Source of the DNA: Isoetes taiwanensis
Taxonomy: Eukaryota; Streptophyta; Lycopodiopsida; Isoetales; Isoetaceae
NCBI GenBank assembly: GCA_021234155.1
Contig: JAJEKV010000015.1
Location: 778,852-842,851, forward strand
DNA: 64,000 bases
Reading direction: 5' to 3'
The notes beneath the pieces were generated by a model. It had not been told where the DNA came from. It did no database searches and worked only from the letters and a program-made list of their open reading frames with translations. This document shows, one piece after another, positions 11,846-33,660 of this stretch (the first letter of the stretch is position 1; each line of letters begins with the position of its first letter). A program made the position numbers and the translations under genes.

Positions 11846-12218
11846 CAGTGTTGTATAAATACGCGTATTTTACATATACTAAACGTATTTTGCGAAACAA
11901 ACGTATTATACGTATGTATGATAAAAACGTTGGTCAAAAATTTAGTAGTTTTTTTATCCTTGCTTTTTTTTTTAATATAACATATTATATTTGTTAATAT
12001 CTTAGGTAAGTCTTCTTTTTTCTTCCATTCATACGTTTCTCTGTTGCCCTTAACGCCGCTCGGATGGAGTAGACGATCATGGCCTGAGATGACAAGGTGA
12101 AGACCCCAAATCATGTTCGGTTGTCTTGCTTGCTTCCTTGAATGCTTCTTAGCCACCTCACAATGATCTTGGATAGCATCCTCCACAGATAGGCAAATAA
12201 TAGCTCATCAAGGAGGTA

Positions 12219-12800: not shown

Positions 12801-13935
12801 GAAAGAAATGACGCATGCTTTGCTATAATGTTATTTATTTCTCACAAGCTTTGCTCATTTTTTGCAGGTTAAAAAAAAAACTTCTGTTTTAGGCTCATGC
12901 AATCCTTCTTTACTGCAGATTTGAAGAAGAGTTTGATGTCAATGATATAAAGCATTGAATTATATATTGCATTTGTTGTTTCTTGCAGGTCCTCCCATTA
13001 TTTTACATCTTGACTTTGAGTTGAGTACACATTGAAGTAAGTAAGCATCTTCTAAATTTTTTTTTGCCATAATCAATAATAAATGTTTTTCTTGCCTTGT
13101 TTTTATAGAGTGGAAGCATGCCTCCAGAAGAATCAGCTTTATGGGGAAAGTATTGCGTGAATTTGGAGAAACTTGGGGGAGGTTATAACAAATGGAATTG
13201 CAAATTTTGTGGTAAACAAGGCCATGGTACAAAAACGAGGTTGGTAGCACATCTAGCTAACATATCACTAATGGTTGTCCACTTGCTACACAAGAGGCAA
13301 GATAGGAAGCTGGAAGAGAAGGTGATAACTTGGCTAAAAATAGAGCATTATCATCATGCAAATCTAAAACTTCTTCATCTTCTACATCTATGCCGCCACC
13401 TCAATTTGATCATGCATTAGCTAATGATGTCCAATTTAGTAGTGATGACGCAACTATTATTAGTGATGCTCCTAACCCTCCCCCATCTTCTAGCACTGTT
13501 AGACCTTCTATTTTGGAGACCATGAAAAATAGGCATGTGCTGCTGATGCAAAAAAAACAGCATGCAAACATGTTACAAATGCGTTGCTTAGTGGAAGCAA
13601 ATTTGTCATTTAATTTGGCAAAAATGCCTTGTTTTACTAAGATGCTTGAAGCATTCTCTTAGGTTGGAGAAAAGCATAGTGATCTAACATATAAGCAAGC
13701 TAGAACAAGTGCTTTACGAAATGAGTATGTTGCTGTAAATTCTAAACTTGACAAGGTTCGTGCTCTTTGGCCCAAGTATGGTTGTACAATTTTAACCGAC
13801 GGATGGGTAGACACGTGCAAAAGAGCATTGGTGAACATCATGGTATCGTCTTGTTACGGCACATTATTTTTAAAATCAATTGATTGTAGCAAGGTAACCG
13901 TTGTAGCAGAAACTGGTATTTGGTTGGCTGAAAAA

Positions 13936-14261
13936 TGTCGAGATATATGATATCGAGATCACCATCTTGCCGCTAGACGTGATGTACCAGCACTTACAGC
14001 ACTTATAGCACTCAGCACATAAGTGCTGACTAAGCACCTATCAGAGTCTAGCAACGGCCCACCACTTGTCATAATTAGATACGGCATAATTAGGAGTGGT
14101 TGGTTGTTGGTTACGGGAGCAATTAATATTGCCTGCCCTTTGTATATCTTGTATTCTCACATACGTTGAACACAATTCCATTTTGCCTTTGTTTTGGGAG
14201 CTTGCGCTCTCGGATATTGGTGTGCATCCCCTTCTCTCCCTTTCTTGGTGCAACCTTGACA
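13936..14261 (+). repeat. Copia 5' LTR (326 bp)
   Basis: Starts TGTCGAGATATATGATATCG and ends CAACCTTGACA, with the canonical TG...CA termini. It differs from the 3' LTR by one base in the TTAGATACGG/TTAGCTACGG word and by an extra TTGTTGG. Confidence 0.97.
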
Positions 14262-14275
14262 TGGTATCAGAGCAC
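14262..14275 (+). promoter_or_regulatory. Copia primer-binding site (initiator Met tRNA)
   Basis: TGGTATCAGAGCAC directly abuts the 5' LTR. It is complementary to the 3' end of plant initiator methionine tRNA, the usual primer of plant Copia elements. Confidence 0.93.
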
Positions 14276-14311
14276 TAGGTGTGCTGAGATTGATTCAAGA
14301 TCAACACAGCA

Positions 14312-17300
14312 ATGGAGAAGGATGCTAGCTACAACCAGATTACCTTCCCTGGCGGTCGTGTGATTCAAATCTTCGATGGCACAGGTTTCCAGCAATGGAA
14401 GAGAAGAATGACTCTCATTCTTAAGGCTGAAGGAGTTTGGGGAATTGTTAGTGGCCAAGAACCAAAGACCGAGCTTGCATCGGATGGCAAGAATAAATCG
14501 TTTCTTGATACTTGGCAACGCCGGATGACAAGGCTATGGCTACGATTGGGCTTTCTCAAGCGAATCTCTTCTTGATGAGGTTCGAAGGAGAACAACCATG
14601 ATTTATGGAATGCTCTCATCCAAGAGCATGAAAAGAAGACCCAATACACAGATTGGGCATTTGTATGTGAAGTGGTGAATATCTTATTGGGAAGAGACCG
14701 AGAGTCTTGATAAATTCGCAGATCGCATGAAGAACACCTTTCGCGCAGATTGAAGCCTCTCGAGAAGAGAATAAGATCTCTCCTTCATTGCAATTATTCT
14801 TCTTTCTTAGATCCTTACCCAATTCTTTTCCATGCTTTGCGCAGCAATCTCATGCAAATTGCCGACATGGATCTCAATCGCAATCACTTCCGCCAAGGAG
14901 GAGATTATGATGAGGAAAGATGCTGGGATTATCAAAGACGAGCACAATGCTTTCTTTGCAGGTCATTCTGAGACTAAATCCTATGCAAAAGGTAATGAAA
15001 AAGCTAAGAAAAAGAAGAATAACAGTAGCAACAATGCCCTTCAAGGGTGCCGACAAAGAAAGGCACAAAGATCCAAGCAAAGAAGTTTGTGACTATTGCA
15101 AGAAAGGCAATCATACCGCAGCAGAGTGTAGGAAGAAGATGAAGGATCTTGAGCACAAACTGAAAGCTTTGGAGACAAACAAAGCTTCAGCCAATGTGGC
15201 CCAAATTGTTGAAGAAGTAAGCGTAGCCAATGTGGTTCCTTGCAGCCCGGATTATGCTTATCTTTGTAAACAAGTGGCAGCCCCTCGCTCTATCAAATTC
15301 ATCATGGATTCTGGTGCTACAGCTCATATTAGTTGGCACAAAGATTGGTTTGAAAGTTTCAGACCTACCTCTTCCAATCACATTGTTCAAATCGGCGACA
15401 ATAGTGAGCATCAAATCTGCGGAATGGGTGACATTCAAGTACCCACAAGTCTTGGTAATTTCACTCTAAAAGGGGTAATGTAACTTTGCGTAAAGATCTG
15501 ATTTCTGTGGCACGTCTTACTGATATGGGCACAAGAGTTATCTTTGATAGTGACGACTGCATTGTTCGCAGCAAAGTTACAGGAAAGAGCCTTGCTCGTG
15601 CTATTCGTATGGGTAATCTCTACCATTTGGGCCAAGAATATGCTGACCAAGTTGTTCTTGTAGCTGCTGGTAATGGTACCTGTGATCTGTGGCATAAGAG
15701 GCTTGTACACATCAGTCTTAAAGCAATCAATCAGTTGCCTCAACTTGTAGACGGTTTTGATCTTCATCAAAGACCCTACTCTTGCAAGTTGTGAGGCTTG
15801 TGCATTGGGCAAACAAAGACCGCCAGATCCTTTACTCTCATTGGCTCTCGTGCCATCGCTCTTCTTGAATTAGTACACACGGATCTTTGTGGTCCAACTC
15901 ATGTTCCTTCTCTCTCGGTGCTTATTATTTTCTCGATATTCATTGATGATTTGAGCAGAAAACATGGGTCTATTTCTTGAAGCGTAAATCGATGCATTTG
16001 CCCATTTCCAAGAATGGAAAGCGCTTGTTGAGAATCAAGTAGCCCATCGATTAAGAAGCTTAGATCCGATAATGGTGGAGGATTTACCACCAAGCATTCA
16101 ATCATTTTTGTGTTGATCATGGTATTGAGCGCCAACTTACCGAGCCTCATACTCCACAACATAATGGCGTTTCTTGAGCGGAAGAATCGCAAAGATTGTT
16201 GACATGGCACGCTGTTTGCTCGCTCAATCCTCAAAGACCCATTCAATTTTGGGCTGAAGCAACAGTATTCAGTTTACCTTCTCAATAGATTGCCCAATCG
16301 TTGTTGGAAAAATCGACTCTCGAAGAAGCTTTCACCGCATAAAGCCAAATTTGTCTCGCTTATGCGTGTCTTTGGATGTGTTTTGCCTTTTATGCTTATT
16401 CCCAAAGCTAATCGCAAGAAACTTGAGCATACCAGCAAGAAAATGATCTTTGTGGGTTTCTCCGACCGACTGCAAGCATGGTTATAGGCTGATTGATCCC
16501 GATACCAAGAAGCTTTGTGTTAGTCGCGATGTTATTTTTCATGAAGATGTTTCGCATTTCAGCAAGGTTCAAAAACTCCTAATGTGGAATTTATTGATAT
16601 CTCTCGCATGGATAACGGATGATGACGCCATAGCTTCCAAATCCATCGGACTCGGTTTAGATATTCCAAAGACATGCGCCGCCTCCAAAGACTGCAAAGG
16701 CTTTACAAAGACCCCCGCTTTCCTCGATCACGGCAGATCTTGACACATCCGATCCGTGAGGAGATCTTGACCCATCCGATCCAGAGATGATTTTGATCAT
16801 CCCGATCAAGGAGGAGTTGAAGAAGAACTTGGTCGAGGTAAAAGGAAACGTTTTCCTCCTCAAAGGTTTGCTTTCTATGCTGAAATTATGCCCAAAGATT
16901 ATGGAGTTTTGTGGTGTCGCTATTATCGCGGAACCCACCACTATCGTGAAGCTATTTCATGTGTCACGCCGCACCTCATTGGCAGCCGGTGCAATGGACC
17001 ACGAAATGGATTCTATTGTTCAAAATGGCACTTGGGATTTGGTTCCTCTTCCTCATGATAGGAAGGTTGTTGGTAACAAATGGGTCTATAAATGCAAGCT
17101 CCATCCCGATGGCACCATCGCCAGCTACAAAGCTACCGGTTGCCTGAGGGGTTTCAGCCAAAAATATGGCATTGATTACTTGGAAACATTTTCTCCAAAG
17201 GGTAAAAATGATGAGCATTCGCATTCTTCTTGCATTTGTCGCTCATCATAATCTTGAGGTTCATCAAACGGATGTCAAGACAAAGATTTCTTAATGGCAA

Positions 17301-18531
17301 ACTTGATGAAGAAATATATATGAAGCAACCTCGTGGTTATGTCAAAGCTGGTGCCGAGCATTTAGTATGCAAATTGACGAAGGCACTTTATGGGTTAAAG
17401 CAAGCATCACGTGCTTGGTACAAGACCATAGATTCTTTCTTCAAAGACCAAGGATTCCACCCTATTGATGCTGATTCTAATGTCTACATCCGTCGTCAAG
17501 GCAAGTTCTTACTCATCATTTCTTTGTATGTGGATGATTCCTTGCTCATAGGCAATAATAATGAGCACATTGCTGAATTCAAGACAAAGCTTGCTGCTAA
17601 GTTTCCAATGGTAGACTTGGGTGAAGCTCGCTATTGTTTGGGTTTGCAAATTGCAAGAGACCGGAAAAATGGGATTCTTCATATCTCTCAAAAGAAGTAC
17701 ATTGAAGAAATGCTTGAGCGCTTTGGCATGGCTGATTGCAATCCATCTAAAGTTCCTATGACTCCGTGTACTCTTCTCACTAAGAAAGATTGTCCACAAT
17801 CTGATCTTTGACGCCTTTCTATGGCAAAAGTTCCATTTCGCAATTGATTAGCAGCCTCATGTATTGCATGGTTTGCACCAGACCTGATATTGCATTTGCT
17901 GTTATAGCTCTAAGCCAATTTTCAGCAGATCCAAGTCATAAGCATTGGGAAATGGCCAAGCACATTCTCCACTACTTAAAGGGTACTGCTGATTATGGCC
18001 TTACTTATCGCAGCAATAGTGATGCTTTTTCATTGCTGACATATAGTGATTCCTCACTTAGCGATGTGATAGACAACTCCAGGTCCACATCCGGCATTTG
18101 TTTTCTGCTTGCCAATGCTGCCGTTGCTTGGATCAGCAAGAAACAAGGGCATGTATCTCTTTCATCCAATGCTTTAGGAGTATGTTGCAAAGATCTACAA
18201 AGAGTCCGTGAGATCATTAGTTTCGGGGACTTTCTTTATGGGCATTGGGCAACGCACTCCTGGACCAGCAAGGATGCTCATGGATAACAAAGGTGGCATT
18301 GGTTGGTGCTCCGCTGAAGTTCGACATCCAAAATCTAAGCATGTTCCCAAGCATTATCATTTTGTAAGGGACCTTGTGGCTGATAAGCAGGTTCAGATTG
18401 AGCATGTTCCTACACGGGACAATACCGCAGATCTCTTGACCAAGCCTTTGGCTCGTGAGCTCTTTGAGCGACATCGACTTGGTATTGGTCTTGATAGATT
18501 CCAGATCTCATCTCCAGGAGGAGGAGGTTGA
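14312..18531 (+). pseudogene. Copia gag-pol, multiple frameshifts
   Basis: Gag starts at 14312 (MEKDASYNQITFPGGRVIQI). Then come a CCHC knuckle (CDYCKKGNHTAAEC, near 15090-15130), the protease motif FIMDSGATAH (near 15300), the GAG-pre-integrase WHKRLVHISLKAI (15690), an integrase start (HTDLCG, 15870), and RT blocks GTWDLVPLP (17030) and LYVDDSLLIG (17525). RNase H follows, including KHVPKHYHFVRDLVADKQVQ (18338-18400). The reading frame changes at least eight times, so no functional polyprotein can be made. The RT segment 17230-17811 is the longest intact piece. Confidence 0.92.
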
Positions 18532-18550
18532 GCATGGAGATGGTGACCTC

Positions 18551-18564
18551 TCATCAAGAAGGAG
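18551..18564 (+). promoter_or_regulatory. Copia polypurine tract
   Basis: The purine-rich word AAGAAGGAG directly precedes the 3' LTR start at 18565, the expected place for plus-strand priming. A second purine-rich tract (GGAGGAGGAGG) lies about 35-50 bp upstream. Confidence 0.7.
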
Positions 18565-18883
18565 TGTCGAGATATATGATATCGAGATCACCATCTTGCC
18601 GCTAGACGTGATGTACCAGCACTTACAGCACTTATAGCACTCAGCACATAAGTGCTGACTAAGCACCTATCAGAGTCTAGCAACGGCCCACCACTTGTCA
18701 TAATTAGCTACGGCATAATTAGGAGTGGTTGGTTACGGGAGCAATTAATATTGCCTGCCCTTTGTATATCTTGTATTCTCACATACGTTGAACACAATTC
18801 CATTTTGCCTTTGTTTTGGGAGCTTGCGCTCTCGGATATTGGTGTGCATCCCCTTCTCTCCCTTTCTTGGTGCAACCTTGACA
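18565..18883 (+). repeat. Copia 3' LTR (319 bp)
   Basis: Same TG...CA ends as the 5' LTR; 7 bp shorter owing to loss of one TTGTTGG. It is followed at once by the AAAAA target duplication and the resumed hAT frame. Confidence 0.97.
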
Positions 18884-20986
18884 AAAAATTATCTGAAACT
18901 ATCAACGACATTGGTAAAGAACATGTGATCCAAGTTGTTTCAGATAATGCTTCTAATTGTGTCCTCATGGGCAAAATACTTGAAGATGAGTTTTCTAACA
19001 TTGTGTGGACACCATGTGCTTCGCATAGCTTGGATCTTCTACTTGAAGATATTTCTAAACTTCCATGGATTGAACCTGCTAAGAAGAGGGCAGCATTAAT
19101 ATCAAGGTTTTTTTATGAAGAAAAGAAATGCTCGAAAGATTTTTTGAAGCATTAGTGATCTTGTTATATTAAGGCCTAGTAGTACCAGATTTGGTGTCAT
19201 GTTTATTGTGATAGAAAGGCTTGTAAAGGTATGGAATGCACTCGAACAAACTGTTGTCTCCACTCAATGGAGAGATTGGAGTGGTTGTAAGAAAACAGAT
19301 GCACAAAATGTGAAACAATATGTGCTTGATAGATCAACTTTTGAGTCATTTGGATTAGTTTTAACAATCATGAGACCTTTATATTGTGTCTTAAGACTCA
19401 GCGATAAAGAGGGATCTACAATTGGCCTTTTGTACGAGTTCATGCAAAGAAGCGAATCAGTTTTGAAGAAAAGACAATTGGAAGATGCAAATAATGACCA
19501 AAAGTAAGTATTTTAATCTTATATATTTCTTATTTCTGAGATCTAATTTCTGATTTCTGATTTTCGTTGCGTATGAGTTTATGCCTTATATTTTTTTCAG
19601 TTTATAATTAAGGTAGACAATTCTTATCTTTCTTTTATCATTTTTTAGGTACAAAGATGTTTTAAAATGCATGAAAGAAAGATGGAAATGGTTTAGCCAC
19701 CCAATTCACTATGTGGCGTATCTCTTGCATCCACTATGGAGAGGAAGTGACTCTCATGTTGATGAGAAGGCAATGGAGGGATGGCTTACCTACATCGGAA
19801 AAGTATATTCACTTTGTTCAACCAATTTGATGCATATCGCAATGGAGTTGGTTTATTCTCTCATCCACTTGCTATCAATCGTGAAGCTCAACTTAAACCT
19901 GTTTCTTGGTGGGAGCATTTTGGTGGAAAAACACCGGAGCTTCAAGCTCTTGCTGTGCATATTCTATCACAAGTTAGTCTACTTTTTATTTCATAATATT
20001 ACTATATAATGACATAATAACATTTGTCTCATTTTATTGATTTAGGATTGTTCATTTGGAGCAGCAGAAAGGAATTGGAGTGCTCATGCTCTTGCCCACA
20101 CAAAGAGAAGGAACAAATTAAGTCCTGCGCAATTAGAGCGTCTAGTATTTGTTCGAGAGAATTTGAGGTTGATGGATAAATTTGAAAGTGGCACTTTTGC
20201 TCCAATGCAGGTATATCTCAATCTGAAATTTCAATTCTTTTATTGAATACTAATATATTATACTAATTCCTCTTCATTCAGGTCTCTCCTGATGAGGTTG
20301 ATGTGGAAAAGAACCCCGAACTCCCACACTTTGATGATTTTGCTAATAGGCAGATGTATCAAGAGTATTTTAACGAGATCATGGCTTCTAGACGCGCTAC
20401 TAGACAAACTAATAGGGTAAGAACTGCTACTGAAACATCAAGTAGAGGAGGTAGGGCAAGAAAACGATCTCGAATTAGCCGCAATCAAGCAAGTGGAGTA
20501 TCTCAACCAGTGGTGAGAAGAGTGACGAGGTCCTTTACTAGTTCTACTGTTGTTACACCAGCAAGTACAGAGGTTCTTGTGACATCGGAAAATGAAGAGG
20601 AGGATATTGATAGCAATGATGAATTTGTGGCTACAAATTATGAAGAGGATGAGGAATCAGAATCTTCATTGGTTGATTCAAGTGATACTGAGTTAAGTGG
20701 GGATGAGGATGATGATTGCAATGCTAAATGAAGACATGAATTTATGTTACAAAACTTATAACTTCATAATTTAAGTTTACTTTATGACTTTCTGTTCTGA
20801 TAATTTGACCTTCTAAGCATTTTGTCAGCTGAATGTCTGAGTAATTTAGAACCCTTCACACACACAAAAAAAAAAAAAAGGAGAAAAACAAAGTTTTTGT
20901 AAAATACGTTTGTATTGATACATACTTGTAAAAAACGTATGCATACGTATTTTTTACATACATACAAAACGTTTGGGACAACATTG

Positions 20987-20994
20987 CATCGCAA
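20987..20994. repeat. Right target-site duplication of the hAT element
   Basis: Exact copy of CATCGCAA at 11838-11845, directly after the right hAT terminus ACAACATTG. Confidence 0.95.
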
Positions 20995-22961
20995 GAAGGC
21001 TTCCCTCCGCAGTGGACCACAAGTAGAGTTGTGCCCATATACAAGGCAGGGGACCCTCAATGCCCGGCCAGCTATCGTACTATTATGGTCAGCTCTCTCC
21101 TTGCAAAACTGTTGGCTGGCATCCTTGAGCAGCGGCTGACAATATGGACAAAGGAGGCAGATGTGCGAGCTCTCACACAGGCAGGTTTTCGGCCCAGATA
21201 TTCCACCATTGATCATATCTTCACTCTGCGCACATTGATTGAGGATAGCAGGAATCACCGACAAAACATGTATTGTTGTTTCGTGGATTTCGCAAAAGCT
21301 TTTGACACAGTGCCCGGGGACAGGTTATGGGACAGATTGCGGCAGCTAGGGACCTCCCTTGACTTGCAGAATGTAGTATATAGGCTATACAAGCTATGCT
21401 CAAGCTGTATCACATCGTCAAGACAGCCGGTAATCAGTAGTATTGGAGTGCGGCAAGGTTGCCCCCTCTTCCCTACACTCTTTGGCCTATACATTGACCA
21501 GCTGGAAGATTGGCTCTCTGAGCATGGAGATGCGGGCGCCCATCTCATGCATCACACAATCCGGCAACTCATATATGCTGATGATGTCAACCTCCTGGCC
21601 TATACTCCAGAGGATATGCAACGTCAGCTGGATGCTCTTGACACTTTTTGCCGATTCACTGGCATGCGAGTTAACTTGGCCAAAACGAGGGTGCTGCTAG
21701 TTCCATCATCCCGTCAGCCAAGGCTTCCCTCATTCATTTACCAGGGACAAGATGCAGAGGTGGCTCCGACCTACAAGTACTTGGGGATCGAGTTATCTAC
21801 TACCACCCATTGGGATGCTGCCATCAGGTTGCGGGTCACGACGGGTTGGAAAGCACTATATGCCATGCAGAACAACAGCCACAAGACAGAGTTTGTATGC
21901 CTGGGGCCACCAGCCACACTTGTTTCGGGCCTTGGTCGAGCCGGTCCTTTTGTATGGGGCAGAAGTGTGGGGCCCGGTGATATCCCTCAACACCTGGAAT
22001 GACCTCGAGCAGGTGCAGAAAGCCTTCTTGGCACGAGCCCTTGGGGTAAAGTCCACAGTTCCATACCAGATCCTACTCCAAGAAACAGGTTTTCTACCCC
22101 TTCAATGGGCTGCATTGAAGCGCCATATCATTTACTTCCAGAAGGTAGTCGCTATGGGTGATACACGTTTGCCCAACCTTGCTTTGGCCATGGCGATGGG
22201 TCTCCAATGCCTGAAAGCCTGCTGGAAGAACAAGCAAGCTCAGTGGTTCTCACGCTGGGGTGTACAGGCAAACAGATGCGTACATGTAAGGACAAAGAAA
22301 GATCGCAAGGCACTTAAGCTGTAACTAGATGCTACTTTCCTCCGCAAGCTCTGGGATGCAGATGCTCTGACGCACGTTAAGTTGTCACACTATCAGCAGC
22401 AAGTCAATCCTAGGCTCACTAGAGGCCCACACCAGTACTTGTACACCCAGTTGCCCATGAAGAAGCTCAGACTTATAGCTTCTATTCGCACGGGTGCACA
22501 TCGCCTCCGCATTGAGACAGGACGTTGGGCTTGGGAAGCACGAGGGCAAATGCTTTGCCAGTGTTGCCACCAGGGGGCCATTGAGGATGAATGTCATGCC
22601 CTCTAGATCTGCCCAGCGTTTGCCTATATCCGAGAGCGGTATGTTCGATTACTAGTGTCTGGCCAACCGTTGCATGAGTTATTGAATACGGCGTCAGTGG
22701 GTTTGTTGGGGTCATACCTCCAGGAGGTTATGGATGCACGGACTCAGTTGTGTCCTCCGGGATGGTATTGAACTGTTCTATACAATTGTACAGCGTGCCA
22801 GCATACTAAACATTGCCAACGTTTTTCCCTCGAAAACCCTTCGGGGCGGGGGTTTTTTAATCTTGTCAGTAATACGCTTGCTGCTCTCTCTTTGTCTGGG
22901 TCCCACAGGCCAATCGGTCTTCGTGGACGCTAAAGAATCTATTCTATTCTATTCTATTCTT
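20995..22961 (+). mobile_element. LINE family A, 3' part: reverse transcriptase, C-terminus, 3' UTR, pentamer tail
   Basis: RT continues with VVPIYKAGDPQCPASYRTI, QAGFRPRYSTIDHI, FVDFAKAFDTVP, GVRQGCPLFPTLFGLYIDQL and the catalytic LIYADDVNLLAYT. A frameshift near 21880 moves the frame to ALVEPVLLYGAEVWGPVISL. Stops occur at about 22322 and 22606. The C-terminal CCHC-like motif (CQCCHQGAIEDECHAL, then ICP) is typical of this LINE type. The frame ends at 22771 and is followed by a UTR with a strong hairpin and a tail of ATTCT repeats (22940-22961) instead of poly(A). It is a dead copy. Confidence 0.92.
22829..22862 (+). other. Conserved 3' UTR hairpin of LINE family A (copy 1)
   Basis: The word CTCGAAAACCC, a short loop, then GGGCGGGGGTTTTTTAATC forms a strong stem. 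The same hairpin recurs at 29955-29990 in another family A copy and at 33501-33565 in a different repeat. It probably folds in the RNA and may be what the LINE reverse transcriptase recognises; that role is inference. Confidence 0.7.
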
Positions 22962-24911
22962 TACTTTAGTTATTGCTGAACCTCAAATTTTGCATCATTG
23001 GCATCTTTCTTTGGATGCCATATAGTAACAAGGTGCTGTGCACGAGGGGTTGCCCTCTGGTGGCCTGAGAATGTTTTTTTATGGTTTCTGTAGAAAGTGG
23101 GTTTGTTCAAGTTTCATTACTCCATGGGTTGCTTGTTTTGTATTGTAGAACTTAGTAGAAATGAGCAAAACTCTACAATTATACATCCATATATACTCGA
23201 AGATTCTAGTAAATGTTAAAATTTAAAAATGCTTTCTTCTTCTTTATAAGGGGGGGTTGCCCATTGGCTGCGCACTAAAGCGCAAAACTAAAATTGCCAC
23301 CATGTAAGCATCAGAATGGCTATGCATGTGATATGCCAACATGCCCAATGAGATTGCCAATATAAAAATCTTAGTCGCTTGCCAATTTCGCAGTGCCACC
23401 TCAAGTTATAAGGTGTCAAAGTGGCGGGGATAGTGGTGCCACCAGGGCTGAGGTAGCAGCCCCTTAAGATTCCAGGGTGCCCATTGAAGGCTGCCATGAT
23501 AGGCCATGAAGAAACTTGAAGGACAAACAATTTTTTTTCTGAATAAAGTACTTAGAACAATAACTAATCAATATGGCAAAATGTAAACAGAATTCTCATT
23601 GATTCATTACTAAAAGCAACAATAAATATATACTAGGCCTTAGAAACTTGAAGGACCTTAGTTATCAAGTACATTTATTCATCATTTATTGCACCATATG
23701 AGTTGAAAAATCCCTTAACATCATGTCTCGAGATATGTTCATGCTCACAGATTTTGTTACCTGCTCATTCAAACTTTAATGACAGATTTAACTGCATGTC
23801 TTGTCTTCTGCAAACGGCTATTCTTTCTTACCAGTATGTGATCAAAAGTGAACTACTAAGCCTTTGAGGAAAACAGTAGATCTTGTCCTTGTTGTACAAA
23901 ATAGTCATGCATCTAAAATCATTGCATTTTTGGAGGTGTCGAACAAGATACCTGCAGTGAACCAATTGTAAGTTAGCCTCAAAAGGGTAAATACAAAGCC
24001 ACTAGTAAGTAAGTAGTTGTTCAAATATAGCTCTTCTTCCGTCACCAAAAATACACGTATTCTACTTCTTCCTTAGATATTAACGTTGTAGATCATGTTT
24101 CCATAATTCCATAGTAGCATATTAACTTTCTTTTGCATTTTAAAAAAATTCAAATTATCCTTCACCATGTTGCTAAGCATGCCAAAACTCATATGATCTG
24201 GAAATTTGTATTCAGATCCTTAGCACCTGATTACAAGTTCCACTAAAGCAACACAAATATATACTAGGCTACGTATATTCTTACTGCAGCCTTATTTTTA
24301 GAGTATAGCCAGATCTACCAAATCTACTAAAAGTCATGCACAATAAATACTTAGACCCTTGATGCACCCGAATCCTAAATCTTTTTATTTCTGCATTATT
24401 TCCTAGATGCAAACATAATCATGTCAGTTACAATGCTATTTAAGAACAAATATTTCCTAGTCCTTAAAGAATTGCAGAAAAACCTGATTAGGTTGGACTT
24501 GAAACATTTCTAATATGCTCATATCATAAAGAAGGCCTTGAATGAGGGGTAAACTTATAGCTATTTCTGGCAATGCGCTTATTTCACTTAGAGAATTCAT
24601 AATGCGTCACTAAGGCATAATTTGATTGATCCACACAACAATCTTCTCAGACTGCTTGAAATACTTGTGCTTGATGAATAACCTTAGTAACATGTATGCT
24701 TGCAGGTAGTACGTCGCATGAATGAGAGATTGAAATACAGATCCAAGTTTTAAACCTCTTGAAGAAGTTGCCAGTATTGTGCATTCACAATCTTTGATAA
24801 ATCTCCATCATTAGCAAAGGACTTTATCTAATGTTGTAGATGAGAACGAGAATAGAAAATCTAGAATCTCAATGATACACTATACATATTCCTGCAGGCC
24901 ACGACTCCATC
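22962..24911. other. AT-rich intergenic DNA, no gene recognised
   Basis: No domain-bearing frame, RNA gene or transposon terminus was found. An 80-codon minus-strand frame at 23530-23288 has no recognisable similarity. Confidence 0.5.
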
Positions 24912-25777
24912 CACTACTGTCTTCCCATAACTGCCATGTACAAAATGTCTTTTTCCAAGTAAACTTAACAATGTAACGGGATGTCCTTGCTGAGCAAAAT
25001 ATCATTGACACAGTTGTTCACACAGTAATGCACTTTGTTCGCTTAACACAAGCAATCCAATACAAGTTATGCACTCTTCTCTGCTTAACACTAGAACAGG
25101 CATCTTGGTTTATCAAAGAACAGACGTGAAAGAGAACAGTTTTATGGCTCACAAGAAGCAAAAAAAAAGGGGAGAATTCAAGGAAAAAACATAATGGAGA
25201 GCCCAACATACCTCCAGCATCGAAATGCAAGAAAGCAGATGGATTCAAATCGCTAAAGTAGTCTCCGCCTTCCTCTGTGCAGCCCACTGGAACCCTCCCT
25301 TAAAAATCGCCAATGAAACCGGCATTGTAGATGGCGACCCTCCCCTACTGCATTAGAGTGTTTTAATTTCAGCTCCAATACCTATTCCAATGCTCTCTAT
25401 TATCAGTCGCGTTCCTCAATACCATGAATGGGAGCATCATGGCAACAAGGGTTTGAGCTTTCATAAGCCTAATCCTTTGCTGGTGAAATAGAATCCTCTT
25501 CAACAAGGAAAACCCACTCTACTCCGTAATCTAGATCTTGATCTAGTCCTTGATCTTGATCTAGAAGCTGGAGCTACAGCAGCCCATCAACAGAACACCG
25601 GTTACCCGGTTGTTTGCCTGCCCAGCAACACAAATGACCGCCAATTTACAGCCAGTAATGGGTTTAATGGGTTTGGAGCAGTTATTGGCATATTCCGGGC
25701 ATATGCTTGCATATACTTGGAATATGCTACAAACCCACATGGACGAAGGTTTGCCCCTTAGGGGCAACCCAAAAAAC
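24912..25777. repeat. Segmental duplication, copy 1 (partner at 28811-29659)
   Basis: About 860 bp matches 28811-29659 in the same orientation with scattered substitutions. Shared words include CTTCCCATAACTGCCATGTA, AAGTAAACTTAACAATGTAA and TGATCTAGTCCTTGATCTTG. It carries a minus-strand exon-like frame (near 25200-25285, EEGGDYFSDLNPSAFLHFDA) ending at a GGTATGTT donor-like site, also kept open in the other copy. The distal end is the SINE-like repeat. The two copies bracket the AMT/PGR fragments. Confidence 0.88.
25590..25777 (-). repeat. SINE-like dispersed repeat, copy 2
   Basis: Reverse-oriented relative of 5037-5205. In reverse it begins GGGTTGCCCCTAAGGGGCAA and continues through GTGGGTTTGTAGCATATTCC to GTTGCTGGGCAG. 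Confidence 0.65.
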
Positions 25778-26696
25778 ACGAACATGGTAAGTTTGTTGCC
25801 TATACGTTCTCCAACCTTACGAAACGTGCCCTCCCATCCCTGTGAAAACAAGTTTATGGGCTCGGGTTGCAATTGGACTTGCCTACACTTCGTTTCCAAA
25901 ATTGTTCATGTGTCTAAGCTTTTTGTACGAAGAAGGTTGGACCTCTTCACATGATAGCACAAAAAAAAGCATTATTTGCATTTATATACACCTTAAACGT
26001 TCAGTTGCATTGCTGCACTCCAATTTTCTCATGTTTTCTTCTTATGCACCTTTCTTCTTCTTTTGGCAAGGAGTAATAAATTTGGACTATTGTTATTGAA
26101 GTTGATGGAAGATTATAATAATAGACAGATTGATTCTCAGGGCGCTTTCCCATGGGCAGAAAACCTCCTAGGTTTCTGAAGGTCTGGTCTGCTATTCCGA
26201 TGTTCCCATGAGCTAAGAGCCTGAGTGGCTGAGGTTAAGAACCTCATTTAAAAAGTAATCCCGACGATTACTTTTGGACCTGGATCTGACCTCATCCAGG
26301 TCCGTCCGTCCATGGGAAAGCACCCTTATTGTGAAACACGAGTACTGTGGCTTTAAATCGGATAGGCAAAGTTTGAAGTGCATCTCCGGAAACAAGCCGC
26401 CCTATTTATAATGATTATCAACAGGAACTCATAATCTGCGGGCAACTGCTGGACCAAGCCCCAACAGGCGTGATACAATTATCTCTGTAATGGCTTCAAT
26501 AATTTGATAGTTATAGCAGTTTATATTTTAGGGGTGGTAATTCGAACAGAAAGGACACTAGAAATGCTTTACATCCCAAGTCTAGATATTCTTCAGATCA
26601 AAAAGGGTTTTAGAGAAGGTTGGCCACTGACCTAAACTAAAAATTCAGAGTGAGATTTTAGAATTAGCATGGCAACACGAGAATAAACAGCAGCAA
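25778..26696. other. Intergenic, with a short inverted repeat
   Basis: Between about 26140 and 26325 the words TTTCCCATGGGCAGAAAACC and CCGTCCATGGGAAAGC face each other, with AAGTAATCCCGACGATTACTT as a small central palindrome-like core. This may be a degenerate MITE. No gene was recognised; the promoter of the AMT fragment is not identifiable. Confidence 0.4.
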
Positions 26697-27961
26697 CACT
26701 GGTGGGGTTGCAGAGTGTGCCAGAGTTAGTAATTTTACATGGAAGCATAGTGAAGAAGAAATGGGTAGTGAATTCAGCATTTATAGCACTATATGTATTT
26801 GCAGCAGTACTTATATGTTGGGTATGCTGCTGGGCTATGGCATGGCATTTGGACAAAAGCTTCTGCCTTTTTGGGGTAAACCTACAGCAGCACTTGGACA
26901 GCATTACCTCCTCCAACTTGCAAGGCTTGATTCAGGTAAAACAACCTCTAAATCTCACATCCTCTTCCTTATGGCCACCCTTGTGTTTTACCAGTTTGAC
27001 TTTGCTGCAATTACTATGATCCTTATTTTTGGATCGGTCCTCGGAAGAATGAATTTCAGAGCTTGGATGATGTTTGTTCCTTTGTGGCTTACCTTTTCTT
27101 ACACTGTTGGTGCTTATAGTCTTTGGGGTGGAGGATTTGTGCATCAATGGGGAGTTATTGATTATGCTGGAGGATCAAGACTTATTGTTGCAGCTTGGAT
27201 GAGCCTGACGCCTAACCTTCGGGAAAAGAACATGACAAACATTGCTGTTGACACGATATCTAAAGTTGAATCTATCTTGCTGGGCTATTCCAGGTTGGCC
27301 CTAGATTAAAGACAGGGCATGGCGCTTTCGCCCCAAACAATATTCTTCTCACTCTTGCGAGGTGGATTGCTTTGGCTTGGTTGGTCGCTTTCAATGGTGG
27401 AGCTCCTTATGTTTTGCCAATCTTACGGCCTCCATAGTCGTTGCTTAATATGCATATTTGTGCAGCAACAAGTTTGTTTATCCGACTGCCTTAGACGTTG
27501 TGTACTTCAAAAAACCATCCAGAATTGGCTAGGTGCAAGGCATGATTATCGGTCTTATATGCATCACTCCCCGGCGCAGTAATGAACAACCTGTTTCCCC
27601 CGTACCAAAGAAAAATTTGTGAAGAAATTCAAAGACTAAATCCTTTGTAGTATATACCATTTAGATAGATCTCTTGTAACTAGTAGCCATAGTTTAAAAC
27701 TCAGAATCCCCGTTCTGGAGGCCATATTGTATATGAACTAATCTACATATAGAAATTGATTGCAGGTGTGGTGCAAGGTTGGGGTGCCATAATAATGGGT
27801 TTTTTATCAGGAAGCATACCCTGGTTCAACATGATGGTGTTACACAAAAGATTAATTTGGCCACAACGCATTGATGACACTCTAGCAATATTCCACACAC
27901 ATGGAGTAGCAGGATTACTGGGGGGCTTATTAACAGGATTTTTAGCCGAGCCAAAGTTGTG
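26697..27961 (+). pseudogene. AMT2-type ammonium transporter fragment, frameshifted and truncated
   Basis: The Amt/Mep family moves ammonium across membranes. The fragment opens with [20 protein letters not shown] and [17 protein letters not shown]. The frame then shifts near 26820, and it continues with [17 protein letters not shown] and [19 protein letters not shown]. Further breaks occur near 27200-27420. After a short intron it resumes with [25 protein letters not shown]-like [18 protein letters not shown] and FLAEPKLC. The GT of the donor near 27580 appears lost (CGCAGTAATG). The C-terminal third is absent: homology stops near 27961, where antisense PGR-like sequence begins. The AMT2 (rather than AMT1) assignment comes from remembered family motifs. 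Confidence 0.87.
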
Positions 27962-28757
27962 CAACCCAAAGGGATTACCAAAATTTGGTAACTCCAAATA
28001 CTTCCATGGCAACTTGTAGAGAATAAACCAACGATGGAAAACATTAGCCCAATTAAACCACCAGCGGCAAATGCTGCAAGAAGTCCGAGAGTTGTGACTC
28101 CGCCATTTGTGCCCCTAGGAACAGGCTGCAAGATAGCATAATCATGCCAAGAGCAGCATATAAAATAAAGTAGAAAATGTCGCATACTAATAACTATATA
28201 AACCGTGCCTGCATTGTTGTAATTAGACGAGGCTGGCTCTTGCTGAGAACTGCGACCTCAGATGACCATGTATCCCCATTACAGCAGGCACAGTATCCAA
28301 AAATAGCACCCAATAATCCTGTGACAAGAGGGTTTTTCTTCTTGTTCAACCACTGATCCCAGCCCCCAGTAATATAAGCAACTAATAAAGACAACAAAGT
28401 TGCTGCCAAACTATTTGCAAACACCTGTACCCTGCATCCCTTGTCTTTTAACAAAGCCGGACAGTGTGTTGGACCAAAAACAAAAGGAAGCCTTACCAGT
28501 CTCTTTGACCACCTTCTTTAAAACCATCCTCCACAATCTTTTTTTCTTCAGATTTATACTTGGTAAGCATTGAGGAACTCATATAAAACACAATAATCAG
28601 AGCTCCAAATCTGGATCCTAGAAACAAAGCATCAAATTCATCAATGTGGAAAATCAGTAAGAAAAACTTGAAAGAAATGAAATGGGCACCTGATACCAGT
28701 TGATATGGAGAGGGCCATTATAAGAAACCCAGCTAATGCTCCAGAAGTCTCAGAATA
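27957..28757 (-). pseudogene. TMEM19/PGR-like integral membrane protein fragment (DUF92), four exons
   Basis: Minus-strand exons: 28757-28697 (SGALAGFLIMALSISTG), 28617-28497 (RFGALIIVFYMSSSMLTKY), 28431-28209 (CCNGDTWSSEVAVLSKSQPR) and 28125 to about 27957 (PVPRGTNGGVTTLGLLAAFA, then QILVIPLG). The splice phases join these into one frame. The intron after the third exon would start GC (CAG|GCACGG), so it is either a GC-AG intron or a mutated donor. The CCNGDTWSSE and RGTNGG motifs mark the TMEM19/PGR branch, not the phytyl-phosphate kinase VTE6 branch. The C-terminus is lost at the junction with the AMT fragment. The first exon is unclear; the duplicated frame near 29170 is a candidate. Confidence 0.82.
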
Positions 28758-28810
28758 CTAGAACTGAGGAGATAAGAAAGCCCATAGCTGATCGAAGAAG
28801 AAAGCACTAC

Positions 28811-29659
28811 ACTACTCTTCCCATAACTGCCATGTACAATGTCTCTTTCCAAGTAAACTTAACAATGTAACAGAATGTCCTTTCTGAGCAAAATATCATT
28901 GAAATCAGATAATTGTTCACACATTAATGCACTTTGTTTGCTTAACACAAGCAATCCAATACAAGTTATGCACTCTCCTCTGCTTAACACTAGAACAGAC
29001 CTCTTGGTTTATCAAAGAGTAGATGTGAAAGAGAACAGTTTTATGGCTCACAAGAAGCAAATAAAAAAAGCTCAAGAAAAAATATAATGGAGAGCACAAC
29101 ATACCTCCAACATCGAAATGCAAGAAAGCAGATGGATTCAAATCGCTAGAGGAATCTCCGCCTTCCTCTGTGCAACCCACCAGAACCCTCCCTTATGAAT
29201 CGCCAATGAAACCGGCGTCGTAGATGGCTACCCTCCCTACCGCATTAGAGTGTGTTAATTTCAGCTCCAATACCTATTCCAGTGCTCTCTGTTATCAGCT
29301 GTGTTCCTCAATACCATGAATGGGAGCAATATAGCAGCAAGGTTTTGAGCCTTCATAAGCCTAATCCTTTGCTAGCGGAAAAGAATCCTCTTCAACAGAG
29401 AAAACCCACTCTACTCCTTAATCTAGATCTTGATCTAGTCCTTGATCTTGATTTAGAAGCTGGAGCTACAACAACCCATTGACAGAACTGCCACTTCGCC
29501 CATTTCTTCGATCTAAGTATGCTTGCTTTGACCGCCAATCTACTGGCAACAACCAGTTTGGAGCAGTCACCAACATATCCTAGGCATATGCTGGCATATA
29601 CTTGGATATGCCACAAACCCACATAAACGAGGGTTTGCCCCCTAGGGGCAACCCAAAAA
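28811..29659. repeat. Segmental duplication, copy 2
   Basis: Partner of 24912-25777, same orientation, directly upstream of the PGR-like fragment. The minus-strand exon-like frame (EEGGDSSSDLNPSAFLHFDV, near 29100-29175) is preserved, with substitutions only. No in-frame ATG is present in that piece, so if coding it is an internal exon. Confidence 0.88.
29480..29659 (-). repeat. SINE-like dispersed repeat, copy 3
   Basis: In reverse it starts GGGTTGCCCCTAGGGGGCAA and follows the other copies through CATATGCCAGCATATGCC-like words, then diverges near 29540. Confidence 0.65.
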
Positions 29660-29711
29660 TGGTTGTTCTTATATTATCTAGCTTTGAATTAGTATAGCAA
29701 TGTTGGCTAGC

Positions 29712-30087
29712 CCTCCAGGCCTGTCCGGCGTACGAGCATATCCGGGCTCGGTATGCTCGGTTAGTTGTGCCCCATCAGGCCTTGCATGAGCTACTGAGCA
29801 CGGCCCATGTAGGCTTGTTGGGATCGTACCTCCAGGAGGTAATGGATACTGCTGGACTCGCTTATGCCCCCTGTCCGACATTAACCTCACCGTATTTGTG
29901 ATTATGTATATAATGCAGTAAGATGTCAAGATCCTTATTGCTACTAAGATTTTTCCCGAAAACCCTTCGGCGGGGTTTTTTCCTGGTAGTAATACGCCTG
30001 CTGCTCTCTCTTTGTACTTAGGTCCCATAGGCCAGCTGGTCTCCGTGGACGATAAAATCATATTCTATTCTATTCTATTCTATTCTC
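29712..30087 (+). mobile_element. LINE family A, 5'-truncated copy (last codons, 3' UTR and tail)
   Basis: Begins within the C-terminal ORF (ACPAYEHIRARYARLVV, LHELLSTAHVGLLGSYLQEV), matching 22607-22740 of the large copy. The UTR has the hairpin at 29955-29990, the conserved TAATACGCCTGCTGCTCTCT and GGTCCCATAGGCCAGCTGG words, and an ATTCT tail (30059-30087). Extreme 5' truncation is normal for LINE insertions. Confidence 0.9.
29955..29990 (+). other. Conserved 3' UTR hairpin of LINE family A (copy 2)
   Basis: TTTTTCCCGAAAACCC pairs with GGCGGGGTTTTTTCC. An outer stem pairs ATTGCTAC (29937-29944) with GTAGTAAT just downstream. Confidence 0.7.
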
Positions 30088-30130
30088 TCATCTTCATCAC
30101 ATCAGAATTTTTTTTCCGATAATATGCATC

Positions 30131-30131
<1 letters not shown>

Positions 30132-30162
<31 letters not shown>
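30132..30162. repeat. Poly(T) tract of 31 bases
   Basis: Uninterrupted T run, possibly the reversed poly(A) tail of a retroposed sequence. What such an insertion would contain is not clear. Confidence 0.9.
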
Positions 30163-30163
<1 letters not shown>

Positions 30164-30290
30164 GAGAGTAAGGATTGATTTTTTCCATTAATCAGAAAAG
30201 AGGAGTACAAGTAATTGCATATGGTGCCTTCTGCATATGCATCGGTTGACCAAAAAAAACCATGCAATAAAATACTATCTGGGATACCAT

Positions 30291-31650
30291 AGAGATCTCT
30301 AATGTTTCTGGTAAGCAGGGCACTGTAATATCAAATGGTTCTCATCCTCTATCTCATCATCTCTACATACTCTGCATGTTCGCCTATGCCTTGGAAGATT
30401 CCCCCGTCTCCCAACCTCTATTCCCAACTGATGAGAGCTAAGTCTTAATCTGCATATCAGATGCCTTTTCTTATATGAAGCCTTTTCTACAAGATGTGGT
30501 GCTTGACATAAACAAGATTAATTGCCTGCTTGTAGAAACTCATTGTTGTCCCAGAATTGCGCCACAGTTTATGTTGCACGTTGACACCTGCCCATTCCCT
30601 TAATATTGTTTGATCACTGGGTACATTATCAATTGACATGCCCCTTTTTTCAATCCATTTCTGTACGTCTGCAAATCGACCTTTTATATTACTTTCTTCC
30701 ATGGCTATTCGCGGAAGCTTTTCAATTTCCATCTGTGTCAATGTGAAATATAAATCTTCTGCTTCAAGTGGTATCATGCCAGAATCCGCCAACGTCATGG
30801 GATAGTTGTGCTTTACAATTTAGTTAGACTCTTTGATCTGTATTTTATCCAACTTGTTGACCATTTCATCATGTTAAAACGCAAATTTGAGCTCATTATT
30901 ATTTGGAATAAATTGCCTGGTCTCGACTGCCCTGCAGAGGTTTTGAAGTTCTCTTTCTCCTTGATCTCTAATGTTCTGGTAAGCAGGGCACTGTAATATC
31001 AGATGGTTCTCTTCCTCTATCTCATCATCTCTACATACTCTGCATGTTCGCCTATGCCTTGGAAGATTCCCCCGTCTCCCAACCTCTATTCCCAACTGAT
31101 GAGAGCTTAGTCGTAATCTGCATATCAGATGCATTTCCTTATACGAAGCCTTTTCTACAAGATGTGGCGCTTGACATAAACAACGGTTAATTGCCTGCTT
31201 GTAGAAACTCATTGTTGTCCCAGAATTGCGCCACAGTTTATGTTGCATATTGACACCTGCCCATTCCCTTAATATTGTTTGATCACTGGGTACATTATCA
31301 ATTGACATGCCCCTTTTTTCAAGCCATTTCTGTACGTCTGCAAATCGACCTTTTATATTACTTTCTTCCATGGCTATTCGCGGGAGCTTTTCCTTTTCCA
31401 TCTGTGTCACTTTCGCCACATACTTTAATGTGAAATATAAATCTTCTGCTTCAAGTGGTATCATGCCAGAATCCGCCAACATCATGGGATAGTTGTGCTT
31501 TACAATTTAGTTAGACTCTTTGATCTGCATTTTATCCAACTTGTTGACCATTTCATCGTGTTAAAACGCAAATTTGAGCTCATTATTACTTGGAATAAAT
31601 TGCCTGGTCTCGACTGCCCTGCAGAGGTTTTGAAGTTCTCTTTCTCCTTT
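30291..31650 (-). pseudogene. LINE family B C-terminal fragment, tandemly duplicated
   Basis: Two direct copies of a 670-690 bp minus-strand fragment of the LINE C-terminus: about 30291-30963 and 30964-31650. The second copy is open from 31485 to 30874 (MLADSGMIPLEAEDLYFTLK, RLRLSSHQLGIEVGRRGNLP, CRVCRDDEIEEENHLILQCP). The CX2C...HX4C motif is the usual C-terminal finger. The first copy lacks 18 bp (CTTTCGCCACATACTTTA) present in the second. Related sequence lies in the large copy at 60.1-60.9 kb. No catalytic RT is present. Confidence 0.87.
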
Positions 31651-32790
31651 ATCTTATGCAACCGCCGAGGTCACACCCTTTGGTCTAAGATGATTACTTG
31701 CTATTTGCAGGCAACCAGAAAAGCAACCAAAAATAGGCCTTCTCCAACTAAGGAATTCCAAGAAAGATATTAGGGTCACATGTACAAGAAAGGTGAAATA
31801 TAGAAACATTTTTGGTTTTTAAGTTGCCCTTAAATGCAAGATGTTGCACCATTTTGCCTTCGTAGATTTGCTATGGACAATAAGCTTTTTGTGTGCTAAT
31901 TGACCCATTGCAATGTAGCATTGACTCCACTTAAACTTATTTGAAGGAATACTTATTTCTAGATCCTTTCTGGCTTCAGCTCTGCAGGATTAGTTCAGGT
32001 CAAAAGGTTGAAAACTGGTCAGTTCGGTAACATATGTAAGATATGTTTTAAATTGTTTCCTTTTTGCGGGCAATATTTAGCTAAACTAGTGTGGTCACTG
32101 GATAGATATTGGAACAAAATCCCTTATTCATCAACTTGGTCCAGACATGATTGAGTAGATAAAACATATGTGTCATTATTGCAGTCATTCTAGTAAGTAT
32201 GTAAAAAATTGTATTGCAGCTATTATATGGTTGCCGGTGAATTGACGTGAAAACCTTTTCTTCTGTAATTTTAGGTGTTGAAGCTCTTTGAAGGATAGCA
32301 AATCTGGGAGAAGATATAACTAATGAGGATTCAAGTTATACATCTGCAAAACCAATTTTTACTCCAAGTTTGGTCATAAGCAATGTTCCCAGAATATCAA
32401 CTAAGAAGCTCTGGGATTAAAACTCAATTATTGCAAATTGTTGGTTTGGCTTTGTGTATTGCATTAAACTCTATAGCCAGACCTTGCATCAAAATTCAAA
32501 CAAACGATAACATTTTTCTGCTCGGAATATTAATGGACATGTTCATTCTCATGCCATAAATGGATAGGAATGCCAGTCAAGAGGCCAGCCAAAATGAAGA
32601 GTTTTGCAAGATAATACGAGTTTTATTGATAAGAAAATCAGGCAAAAATGCTCCCCTTTATGCCAAGGACTGACCTCTTATCTCGAGCTTTTAGTATCTA
32701 TCATCATGGAAGCAGTGGGAATGCAAATAAAACAAGTTTATGCACATTCTTAACACCGAAACAAAGCCCATGCATCCGTTTTGCATGCAT
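31651..32790. other. AT-rich intergenic DNA, nothing recognised
   Basis: No domain, transposon end or RNA gene could be identified on either strand. Confidence 0.5.
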
Positions 32791-32931
32791 GGGACGAGCA
32801 TGCATGTTTTGCATGCATGCGGGCGGCGCATGCCCGTTCTGGTTGGGAGTTCGCTATTTTAGGCGCGTTTCAGCTTCGACTTCTCATCGGCGCTTCCTTT
32901 TCTCTCTCAGCAGTAACTTATTTTCTTTGAA
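32791..32931 (+). repeat. 141-bp direct repeat, copy A
   Basis: Begins GGGACGAGCATGCATGTTTT and includes GCGGGCGGCGCATGCCCGTT and TCAGCTTCGACTTCTCATCG. It recurs at 33152-33292 with a few substitutions. The flanking word CCCATTCTAGAAT near 33100 and 33140 also recurs at 40217, indicating a dispersed repeat family. Confidence 0.88.
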
Positions 32932-33151
32932 TTGTTTCCAGGCAGGGGAGGGGCTTCTTCCTGCCTGGTTTGGCCAATTTGGCGTTTCTTTCATGCTGTC
33001 CTTTCTCGGCCTTTAGCCTTCATCCTGTGACCTTCGTCCTCGATCCTAGTTTGTTAAGGAAGTCCTTTGGTATTCGGGCGGTTTGTTGGTTTCATGCGAG
33101 TCCCATTCTAGAATCCCATCGATCCGAGACATCGGATCGCCATTCTAGAAT

Positions 33152-33292
33152 GGGACGAGCATGCATATTTTGCATGCATGCGGGCGGCGCATGTCCGTTC
33201 TGGTTGGGAGTTCGCTATTTTAGGCGCGTTTCAGCTTCGACTTCTCATCGGCGCTTCCTCTTCTCTCTCAGCAGTACTTTATTTTCTTTGAA
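33152..33292 (+). repeat. 141-bp direct repeat, copy B
   Basis: Same unit as 32791-32931, 361 bp downstream. It is followed by about 370 bp of GC-richer sequence ending in the hairpin at 33501-33565 and the word GGTGCCCGGCGTTGCCGGGC. A and B could be 5' portions of one repeated retroelement. A short match (CGGCGCTTCCTCTTCTCTC) also occurs near 38812. Confidence 0.88.
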
Positions 33293-33500
33293 CCCACCCT
33301 CCCCCCCTTCTTTGTTATTGTATTTTTATTGCGTGGCACGCGCGTAATCAGCCCCTCCACTCTGGGAGGTTTGTTTTGTCTTGTTGTTTTGTTGGTGATG
33401 TGCAGGTACAGGTTAGCGAGCGGCATCTGTTTTGACTTTTCCATTCGTGGATTTTGGGAGCGATTTTTATGCCTTACGTTTGTCCAAGCCCCTTGCGAAG

Positions 33501-33565
33501 GCTTATCACTAGGGTTTTTCCTCGAAAACCCGAAAGGGCGGGGTTTTTTAATCCCGGTGATAAGC
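33501..33565 (+). other. Two-tier hairpin shared with LINE family A 3' UTRs
   Basis: The outer stem GCTTATCAC / GTGATAAGC is perfect. The inner stem has CTCGAAAACCC, a GAAA tetraloop, then GGGCGGGGTTTTTTAATC. The inner part is nearly identical to the LINE hairpins at 22829 and 29955, while the outer stem differs in sequence but still pairs. The rest of the neighbouring repeat is not LINE family A. Confidence 0.72.
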
Positions 33566-33660
33566 TTTCGGCAGGTACACTAGCCCAGTCTCTATTAGCA
33601 TTGTATTTTGTTGGGGTCCAAATGATACTAGTTATGGTGCCCGGCGTTGCCGGGCTTTAG

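Follow-up and report, generated by a model that had tools for sequence, protein, structure and literature searches.

A candidate ENE-type hairpin shared by the 3′ untranslated region of a LINE and an unclassified repeat in Isoetes taiwanensis

The stretch of DNA analysed here, referred to as the window, comprises 64,000 nucleotides of Isoetes taiwanensis (assembly GCA_021234155.1, contig JAJEKV010000015.1, positions 778,852 to 842,851 of the forward strand) with a G+C content of 39.65%; all coordinates below are positions in the window. It contains a non-LTR (long terminal repeat) retrotransposon of the long interspersed nuclear element type, LINE A, and a G+C-richer unclassified repeat near 33.5 kb, which share a hairpin. 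We consider it probable, with appreciable doubt left, that this hairpin is an RNA stability element of the ENE (element for nuclear expression) type in both hosts. The features concerned are:

20987-22771, plus strand: 3′ part of open reading frame 2 (ORF2) of LINE A copy 1, reverse transcriptase, with frameshifts and one stop; final stop codon at 22769-22771.
22812-22873, plus strand: ENE-like hairpin in the 3′ untranslated region (UTR) of LINE A copy 1; U tracts 22822-22826 and 22853-22858; inner stem 22827-22832/22847-22852; UUCG loop 22840-22843.
22900-22928, plus strand: terminal 3′ stem-loop of LINE A copy 1, then the (TATTC)n tail at 22938-22960.
29701-30086, plus strand: LINE A copy 2, 5′-truncated (5′ limit approximate), with the end of ORF2 (stop 29899-29901), the 3′ UTR and the tail (30061-30086).
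29937-29993, plus strand: ENE-like hairpin in the 3′ UTR of LINE A copy 2; U tracts 29950-29954 and 29976-29981; UUCG loop 29966-29969; inner G+C stem partly lost.
30022-30050, plus strand: terminal 3′ stem-loop of LINE A copy 2.
32789-33620, plus strand: G+C-richer unclassified repeat holding the 33.5 kb hairpin (end approximate).
33496-33570, plus strand: ENE-like hairpin of the unclassified repeat; outer stem of 15 bp; U tracts 33515-33519 and 33544-33549; inner stem 33520-33524/33539-33543; GAAA loop 33532-33535.

Both LINE A copies end alike: past the ORF2 stop comes a short 3′ UTR that holds the hairpin, then a terminal stem-loop and, last, (TATTC)n. The reverse transcriptase of copy 1 is recognised inside 20.99-22.77 kb (RVT_1, E 3.8e-28); among solved sequences R2-type proteins come closest (E 1.5e-22), L1 ORF2p following at 4.4e-13, and ORF2 carries a zinc-knuckle-like motif, judged by eye. 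The hairpin starts 35 and 40 nt past the ORF2 stop in the two copies and is present in the 3′ UTR of 2/2 LINE copies long enough to include it. The terminal stem-loop begins 26 nt downstream of it at 22.8 kb and 28 nt downstream at 29.9 kb.

A first-pass annotation of this DNA had described a two-tier hairpin with the same inner part at these three sites, and the sequences do lie where it placed them. It overlooked a UUUUU tract directly 5′ of the inner stem in each copy (22822-22826, 29950-29954 and 33515-33519). All three copies follow a common plan of outer stem, U5, G+C stem, U6 and outer stem. The 33.5 kb copy runs through outer stem, GGG, U5, CCUCG, A4, CCC, GAAA, GGG, CGGGG, U6, AAU, CCC and outer stem; in the 22.8 kb copy CCCUCG is paired to CGGGGG, with CCC-UUCG-GGG between them. 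Each copy has a stable tetraloop, UUCG in the LINE copies and GAAA in the repeat, so that all four positions differ. The inner sequence CGAAAACCC is exact at 22831, 29957 and 33523, and GGCGGGGTTTTTT is exact at 29969 and 33537, with one mismatch at 22845. The outer stem is perfect at 29937-29944/29986-29993 and at 33501-33509/33557-33565, where it extends to 33496-33510/33556-33570; at 22812-22820/22865-22873 it carries two mismatches, that is, two broken pairs. Since the minimum-energy fold of the 22.8 kb copy uses another outer register (22812-22815 with 22867-22870), the homologous outer register there rests on the alignment. The upper C-G pair bordering the U loop is present in 3/3 copies. 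The lower G-C pair adjoins the U loop at 33.5 kb and forms also in the open fold; by our own reading its counterparts are G22821 opposite C22862 (22.8 kb) and G29948-C29982, one nucleotide off (29.9 kb). The U-loop architecture is found in three of three copies by structure alignment and in two of three by the descriptor described below.

Homology of the three hairpins has good support from their sequences. In the window, blastn aligns the 33.5 kb with the 22.8 kb hairpin at 75.8% identity over 62 nt (E 9.5e-6), and the alignment scores of all three hairpin pairs were reached by 0/2000 dinucleotide shuffles. We built a covariance model from the three copies and ran it over the 64-kb window. 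It recovers them at E 1.2e-19, 5.1e-15 and 1.2e-13 and finds no further copy in the 64 kb, the next matches having E 0.46 and 1.6; as the three copies match their own model by construction, the search informs only on the lack of further ones.

The outer stems differ in sequence and still pair, and the compensating changes noticed in the first-pass annotation withstand closer counting. Between the 29.9 and 33.5 kb copies pairs 1, 5 and 6 are changed on both sides, pair 4 is G-U versus A-U, and all eight pairs form in both. When the three 3′ changes were placed randomly, all pairs were kept in 0.2% of trials, or in 0.4% with a transition bias (p about 0.002-0.004). Among the MAFFT alignments of the three copies, A1-A3 and A6 misplaced parts of the hairpin and were excluded from the counts, and A4 was used. 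It shows two-sided change at 4/20 pairs (shuffle mean 1.6; reached by 11/500) and pairing in 89.1% of cells (21/500 shuffles reach this), which falls to 28-55% when the partners are slid by one to three columns; the 6 further pair types are less striking (64/500 shuffles). The sample for covariation is three sequences, in effect one informative divergence. The inner stem shows no base covariation among the three copies, just one extra C-G pair at 22.8 kb.

The divergence is unevenly distributed over the structure. Between the 33.5 and 29.9 kb copies the U tracts, G+C stems and A4 are identical at 27/28 positions, compared with 15/29 in the outer stem and loop (p 1.6e-4), and between the 33.5 and 22.8 kb copies the figures are 30/31 and 11/27 (p 3.4e-6). 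With the core near-identical and the periphery diverged, sequence is therefore kept in the U tracts and the G+C core, and mainly pairing is kept outside. U tracts and a G+C core that are kept within a maintained outer pairing are the pattern that an ENE forming a triple helix would show. We also wrote, after seeing the copies, a descriptor consisting of outer stem, T5 or longer, an inner stem of at least 4 bp closed by G-C, T5 or longer, and outer stem. On both strands of the 64 kb it matches the 22.8 and 33.5 kb copies alone, with a chance rate of 0.005 per shuffled window on average and of 0.045 to 0.12 in three laxer settings (200 shuffles each). The descriptor passes over the 29.9 kb copy owing to the loss of bases from that copy's inner stem.

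ENEs grip poly(A) as a U-A-U triple helix and are known from plant transposon RNAs, as set out in the available parts of PMC12501189. According to the same parts, the triple helix of the ENE in the 3′ UTR of the Arabidopsis element Evade depends on the U tracts and on the G-C pairs next to them; this ENE protects the RNA from deadenylation and raises mobility. We read the hairpin as ENE-type on the strength of its layout, homology, pattern of constraint and position in a LINE 3′ UTR. Its build resembles that of the known poly(A)-tail clamps, which guard an RNA against decay, more than that of a start signal for reverse transcription taken over from the LINE. The U5 and U6 tracts would clamp the poly(A) tail of the transcript as U-A-U triples, and the clamped tail might be deadenylated more slowly, with a higher RNA level and more retrotransposition as possible consequences. 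The LINE and the 33.5 kb element would both derive their hairpins from a single ancestral ENE. The catalogue of Tycowski, Shu and Steitz (2016) reportedly contains no stack of more than five base triples, which would fit the U5 tract here.

The closest parallel, the Evade ENE, has U-rich internal loops, essential flanking G-C pairs, a fold-back and a position in a transposon 3′ UTR in common with the present hairpin (PMC12501189, available parts). Evade, however, is an LTR element of the Copia type for which four U tracts are described there, whereas here the host is non-LTR and ends in a pentanucleotide tail, and its hairpin has one tract pair and an inner stem with an A4 bulge. The double ENE of a rice transposase (hAT) mRNA (PDB 7JNH) likewise combines a U-rich loop closed by G-C with a plant transposon mRNA; according to the portions of PMC12707130 and PMC12846552 at hand, it differs in having two ENE domains, compared with one here, and in its transposon class. 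In the 3′ ENE of MALAT1, a stem-loop with a U-rich internal loop between two duplexes, the partner is an encoded A-rich tract (PMC11411715, in part), of which none is visible here. ENEs have been described in LTR retrotransposons and in a rice hAT element. No description of an ENE in a LINE occurs among the literature matches listed, which did not cover the main ENE catalogue (Tycowski, Shu and Steitz 2016). Plant transposons are already known to carry ENEs, and the LINE is possibly a new host class. Exact-pattern scans for relatives in viral contigs returned 0, 2 and 0 records in three runs, and a genome-contig scan, made with the LINE 3′-end pattern only, returned 0; neither contig collection includes plant genomes. 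The two viral-contig records look like chance and lack a 3′ partner strand in the stretch examined.

If the ENE assignment is true, LINE RNAs that are copied from a non-poly(A) tail would nonetheless be polyadenylated and guard their tails, and two jobs would be split within one 3′ UTR: the hairpin would protect the RNA, and the terminal stem-loop would serve for template recognition. ENE homology between unrelated elements would mean that the module itself moves from transposon to transposon.

Further LINE A sequence lies near the start of the window:

4231-4461, minus strand: two short, tailed LINE A 3′ ends (stem-loops 4417-4445 and 4262-4290), too short for the hairpin.

A search of the window for the terminal stem-loop pattern gave 5 matches, of which 4 are LINE 3′ ends and the fifth (52906, 3 mismatches) falls inside a pentatricopeptide repeat (PPR) ORF. 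For all four LINE ends tested, the fold of the terminal segment is GUCC..GGAC enclosing a second stem, and folds as low occurred in 7, 37, 1 and 15 of 200 mononucleotide shuffles. Between copies 1 and 2 the hairpin is identical at 48/55 positions and the terminal part at 51/60, each unmatched in 500 shuffles; the alignment of the segment upstream of the hairpin is matched by 134/500 and is not above chance. The terminal segment, which adjoins the pentamer tail, is the natural candidate for template recognition. The reverse transcriptase more likely recognises this terminal stem-loop with the pentamer tail than the shared hairpin. Stem-loops of stringent LINEs and their partner SINEs (short interspersed nuclear elements) show compensating changes as well, and some have short tail repeats. 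As far as the sections available of PMC4176376 and PMC3747384 go, those stem-loops are the part of the 3′ tail that is shared with SINEs, a role which the terminal stem-loop fits here and the shared hairpin does not. Two side observations concern the same regions. In whole-UTR folds (29902-30060 and 22772-22937) the hairpin of each LINE copy is possibly surrounded by a third, outermost tier (GCAG/CUGC type). The tandem 3′ ends at 4179-4461 (minus strand) are each followed by the same host sequence of ~52 bp, either a very long target duplication or the product of a tandem duplication of a 145-155 bp unit.

The repeat that holds the 33.5 kb hairpin contains a 143-bp unit at 32789-32931 that is repeated at 33150-33292 (361 bp apart, 97%), and fragments of it occur at 38805 and 40191. 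The diverged copy of its middle part at 38.8 kb has no hairpin, and the alignment of this copy past about 33.4 kb is probably spurious. Around the repeat we found no LTR pair, clear terminal inverted repeat (TIR), pentamer tail or convincing target duplication. There are 11 LTR-like TG..CA pairs with 5-bp repeats, a count made without a shuffle control. Target duplications combined with a TIR gave 0 matches at lengths of 8, 9, 10 and 2 bp and 3 matches each at 5 and 3 bp, compared with shuffled means of 1.3 and 2.85.

The first-pass annotation took the repeat for a SINE that borrows the 3′ recognition structure of a LINE. That the LINE reverse transcriptase binds the hairpin and thereby mobilises the 33.5 kb repeat is, in our assessment, very improbable, even though it would account for the homologous structure, compensating changes included, that LINE 3′ UTRs share with a repeat without detected LINE sequence, and stringent LINEs do use 3′ stem-loops (PMC4176376, consulted sections). 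The shared hairpin, however, is not the LINE 3′ end. The proposal fails because the LINE terminal stem-loop and (TATTC)n are not found at 33.5 kb and because the internal T5 and T6, runs that are stop signals for RNA polymerase III, should stop that enzyme. SINEs carry RNA polymerase III promoters (PMC3747384, sections consulted). In the window we found neither a tRNA nor an Rfam match that could represent a SINE head, although a decayed head could be missed. We found no convincing tail on the repeat, and none of the three 10-nt direct repeats around the region is convincing as a target duplication. The loop, moreover, differs at 4/4 positions between LINE and repeat, whereas in two zebrafish stringent LINEs the cognate protein recognises the loop specifically (PMC4176376, same sections). 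What stands of the earlier interpretation is the homologous two-tier hairpin with its compensating outer changes; the borrowing by a SINE does not. The 33.5 kb unit might instead be a diverged or internally deleted LINE, composed of 5′ monomers and a 3′ UTR, so that the sharing would be ordinary LINE descent. We regard this as unlikely, and it would be compatible with an ENE-type hairpin. The 143-bp units 361 bp apart do resemble LINE 5′ monomers, and a 14-nt stretch with one mismatch is common to the 3′ flank of the hairpin and the LINE end at 4.3 kb (9/500 shuffles as good). Against this, the two other LINE ends are matched by 105 and 267/500 shuffles, and the 5′ flank, compared with LINE sequence upstream of the hairpin, by 330 and 52/500. 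The repeat lacks the pentamer tail, and the window search over 32.7-33.7 kb shows similarity to LINE A in the hairpin alone.

A small mobile palindrome or microRNA-like foldback, inserted both in a LINE ancestor and at 33.5 kb, is improbable in our estimation. The 33.5 kb hairpin, whose outer stem has 15 bp, is indeed very stable: the energy of 33490-33580 is -43.1 kcal/mol (z -6.55), and 0/500 shuffles are as low. A foldback, however, needs no unpaired U tracts, yet these are kept at 11/11 and 10/11 positions, and the outer arms are kept less (15/25 and 11/23; p 0.016 and 0.024). No target duplication with inverted ends occurs clearly above chance, and a match to mir-9413 (E 0.26) is not significant. 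Slightly more doubtful still is a transcription terminator or 3′-processing hairpin, that is, a G+C hairpin followed by a U run. It would fit the G+C stem followed by T6 in 3/3 copies and the position downstream of the stop codon in the LINEs. It leaves the conserved 5′ U5 and the outer stem around both U tracts unexplained and would remove the conserved LINE 3′ end. A variant of the ENE interpretation, in which a pentamer-tailed non-LTR retrotransposon exchanged with an unrelated element a poly(A)-clamp module whose conserved A4 acts as a self-lid switching between closed and open, we hold to be rather unlikely. In it A4C3 would pair with G4U4 of the 3′ U tract side in a self-closed state, to which the 5′ U tract might add a third strand, and the open state would grip the tail. 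The closed fold is better than the ENE-like fold by 1.1 kcal/mol at 29.9 kb, where 0/500 mononucleotide shuffles are as low, and worse by 4.4 and 3.2 kcal/mol at 22.8 and 33.5 kb.

Several observations weigh against the assignment of the hairpin as an ENE. The U-A-U triplex is something we infer from the layout. In fold energies that leave any triplex out of account, opening both U tracts completely costs 1.7 kcal/mol relative to the minimum at 22.8 kb, 5.0 at 29.9 kb and 2.1 at 33.5 kb. The minimum folds at 22.8 and 33.5 kb pair two 5′ U residues with the AA after U6, and that at 29.9 kb pairs A4C3 with the 3′ U tract. The lower G-C pair at 22.8 kb is possible, though not favoured, and forcing it adds 0.8 kcal/mol; this hairpin is not strongly stable, 33/500 mononucleotide shuffles being as low. 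Whole LINE 3′ UTRs fold no better than shuffles (z -0.63 and -1.49). No encoded A-rich partner tract is visible, and as the LINE copies have (TATTC)n and no poly(A) at their ends, the A-tract partner of the ENE is assumed. Rfam gave no match at the gathering score, and the matches below threshold are weak (best E 0.26) and include no ENE family. The descriptor, written post hoc, misses one copy of three, and a comparison of the LINE copies with each other shows no difference in conservation of core and periphery (26/28 and 21/27; p 0.14). Finally, the long LINE copy is broken in ORF2 and the other is 5′-truncated.

The window also carries an 851-residue PPR-repeat ORF, a Copia element and the remnant of a DUF659 (hAT-type) transposase. 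The last two belong to a 9.1-kb insertion (11846-20986) that interrupts the LINE A reverse transcriptase. It has the ends CAGTGTTG/CAACATTG, contains the DUF659 transposase remnant and is flanked by an 8-bp target duplication, CATCGCAA (11838-11845 and 20987-20994); with the Copia element (LTRs 13936-14261 and 18565-18883) inside it, it forms a nested hAT and Copia arrangement. Upstream of the LINE A 5′ half lies a G+C-rich near-palindrome of ~125 bp (9222-9347, by eye), possibly a foldback element, part of which recurs at 58663-58727. One arm of this different palindrome supplies a fourth exact CGAAAACCC site (minus strand, 9240-9248). At 30294-31654 (minus strand) there is an apparent 3′ coding end of a second LINE family with a tandem duplication of ~690 bp (94%), zinc-knuckle-like by eye and without a Pfam match; a relative is located at 60.3-60.9 kb, next to an ORF for a reverse transcriptase (61.5-62.2 kb). 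A repeat of ~860 bp is present in two copies (24912-25775 and 28810-29659, 85%), with an inverted partial copy at 5017-5187.

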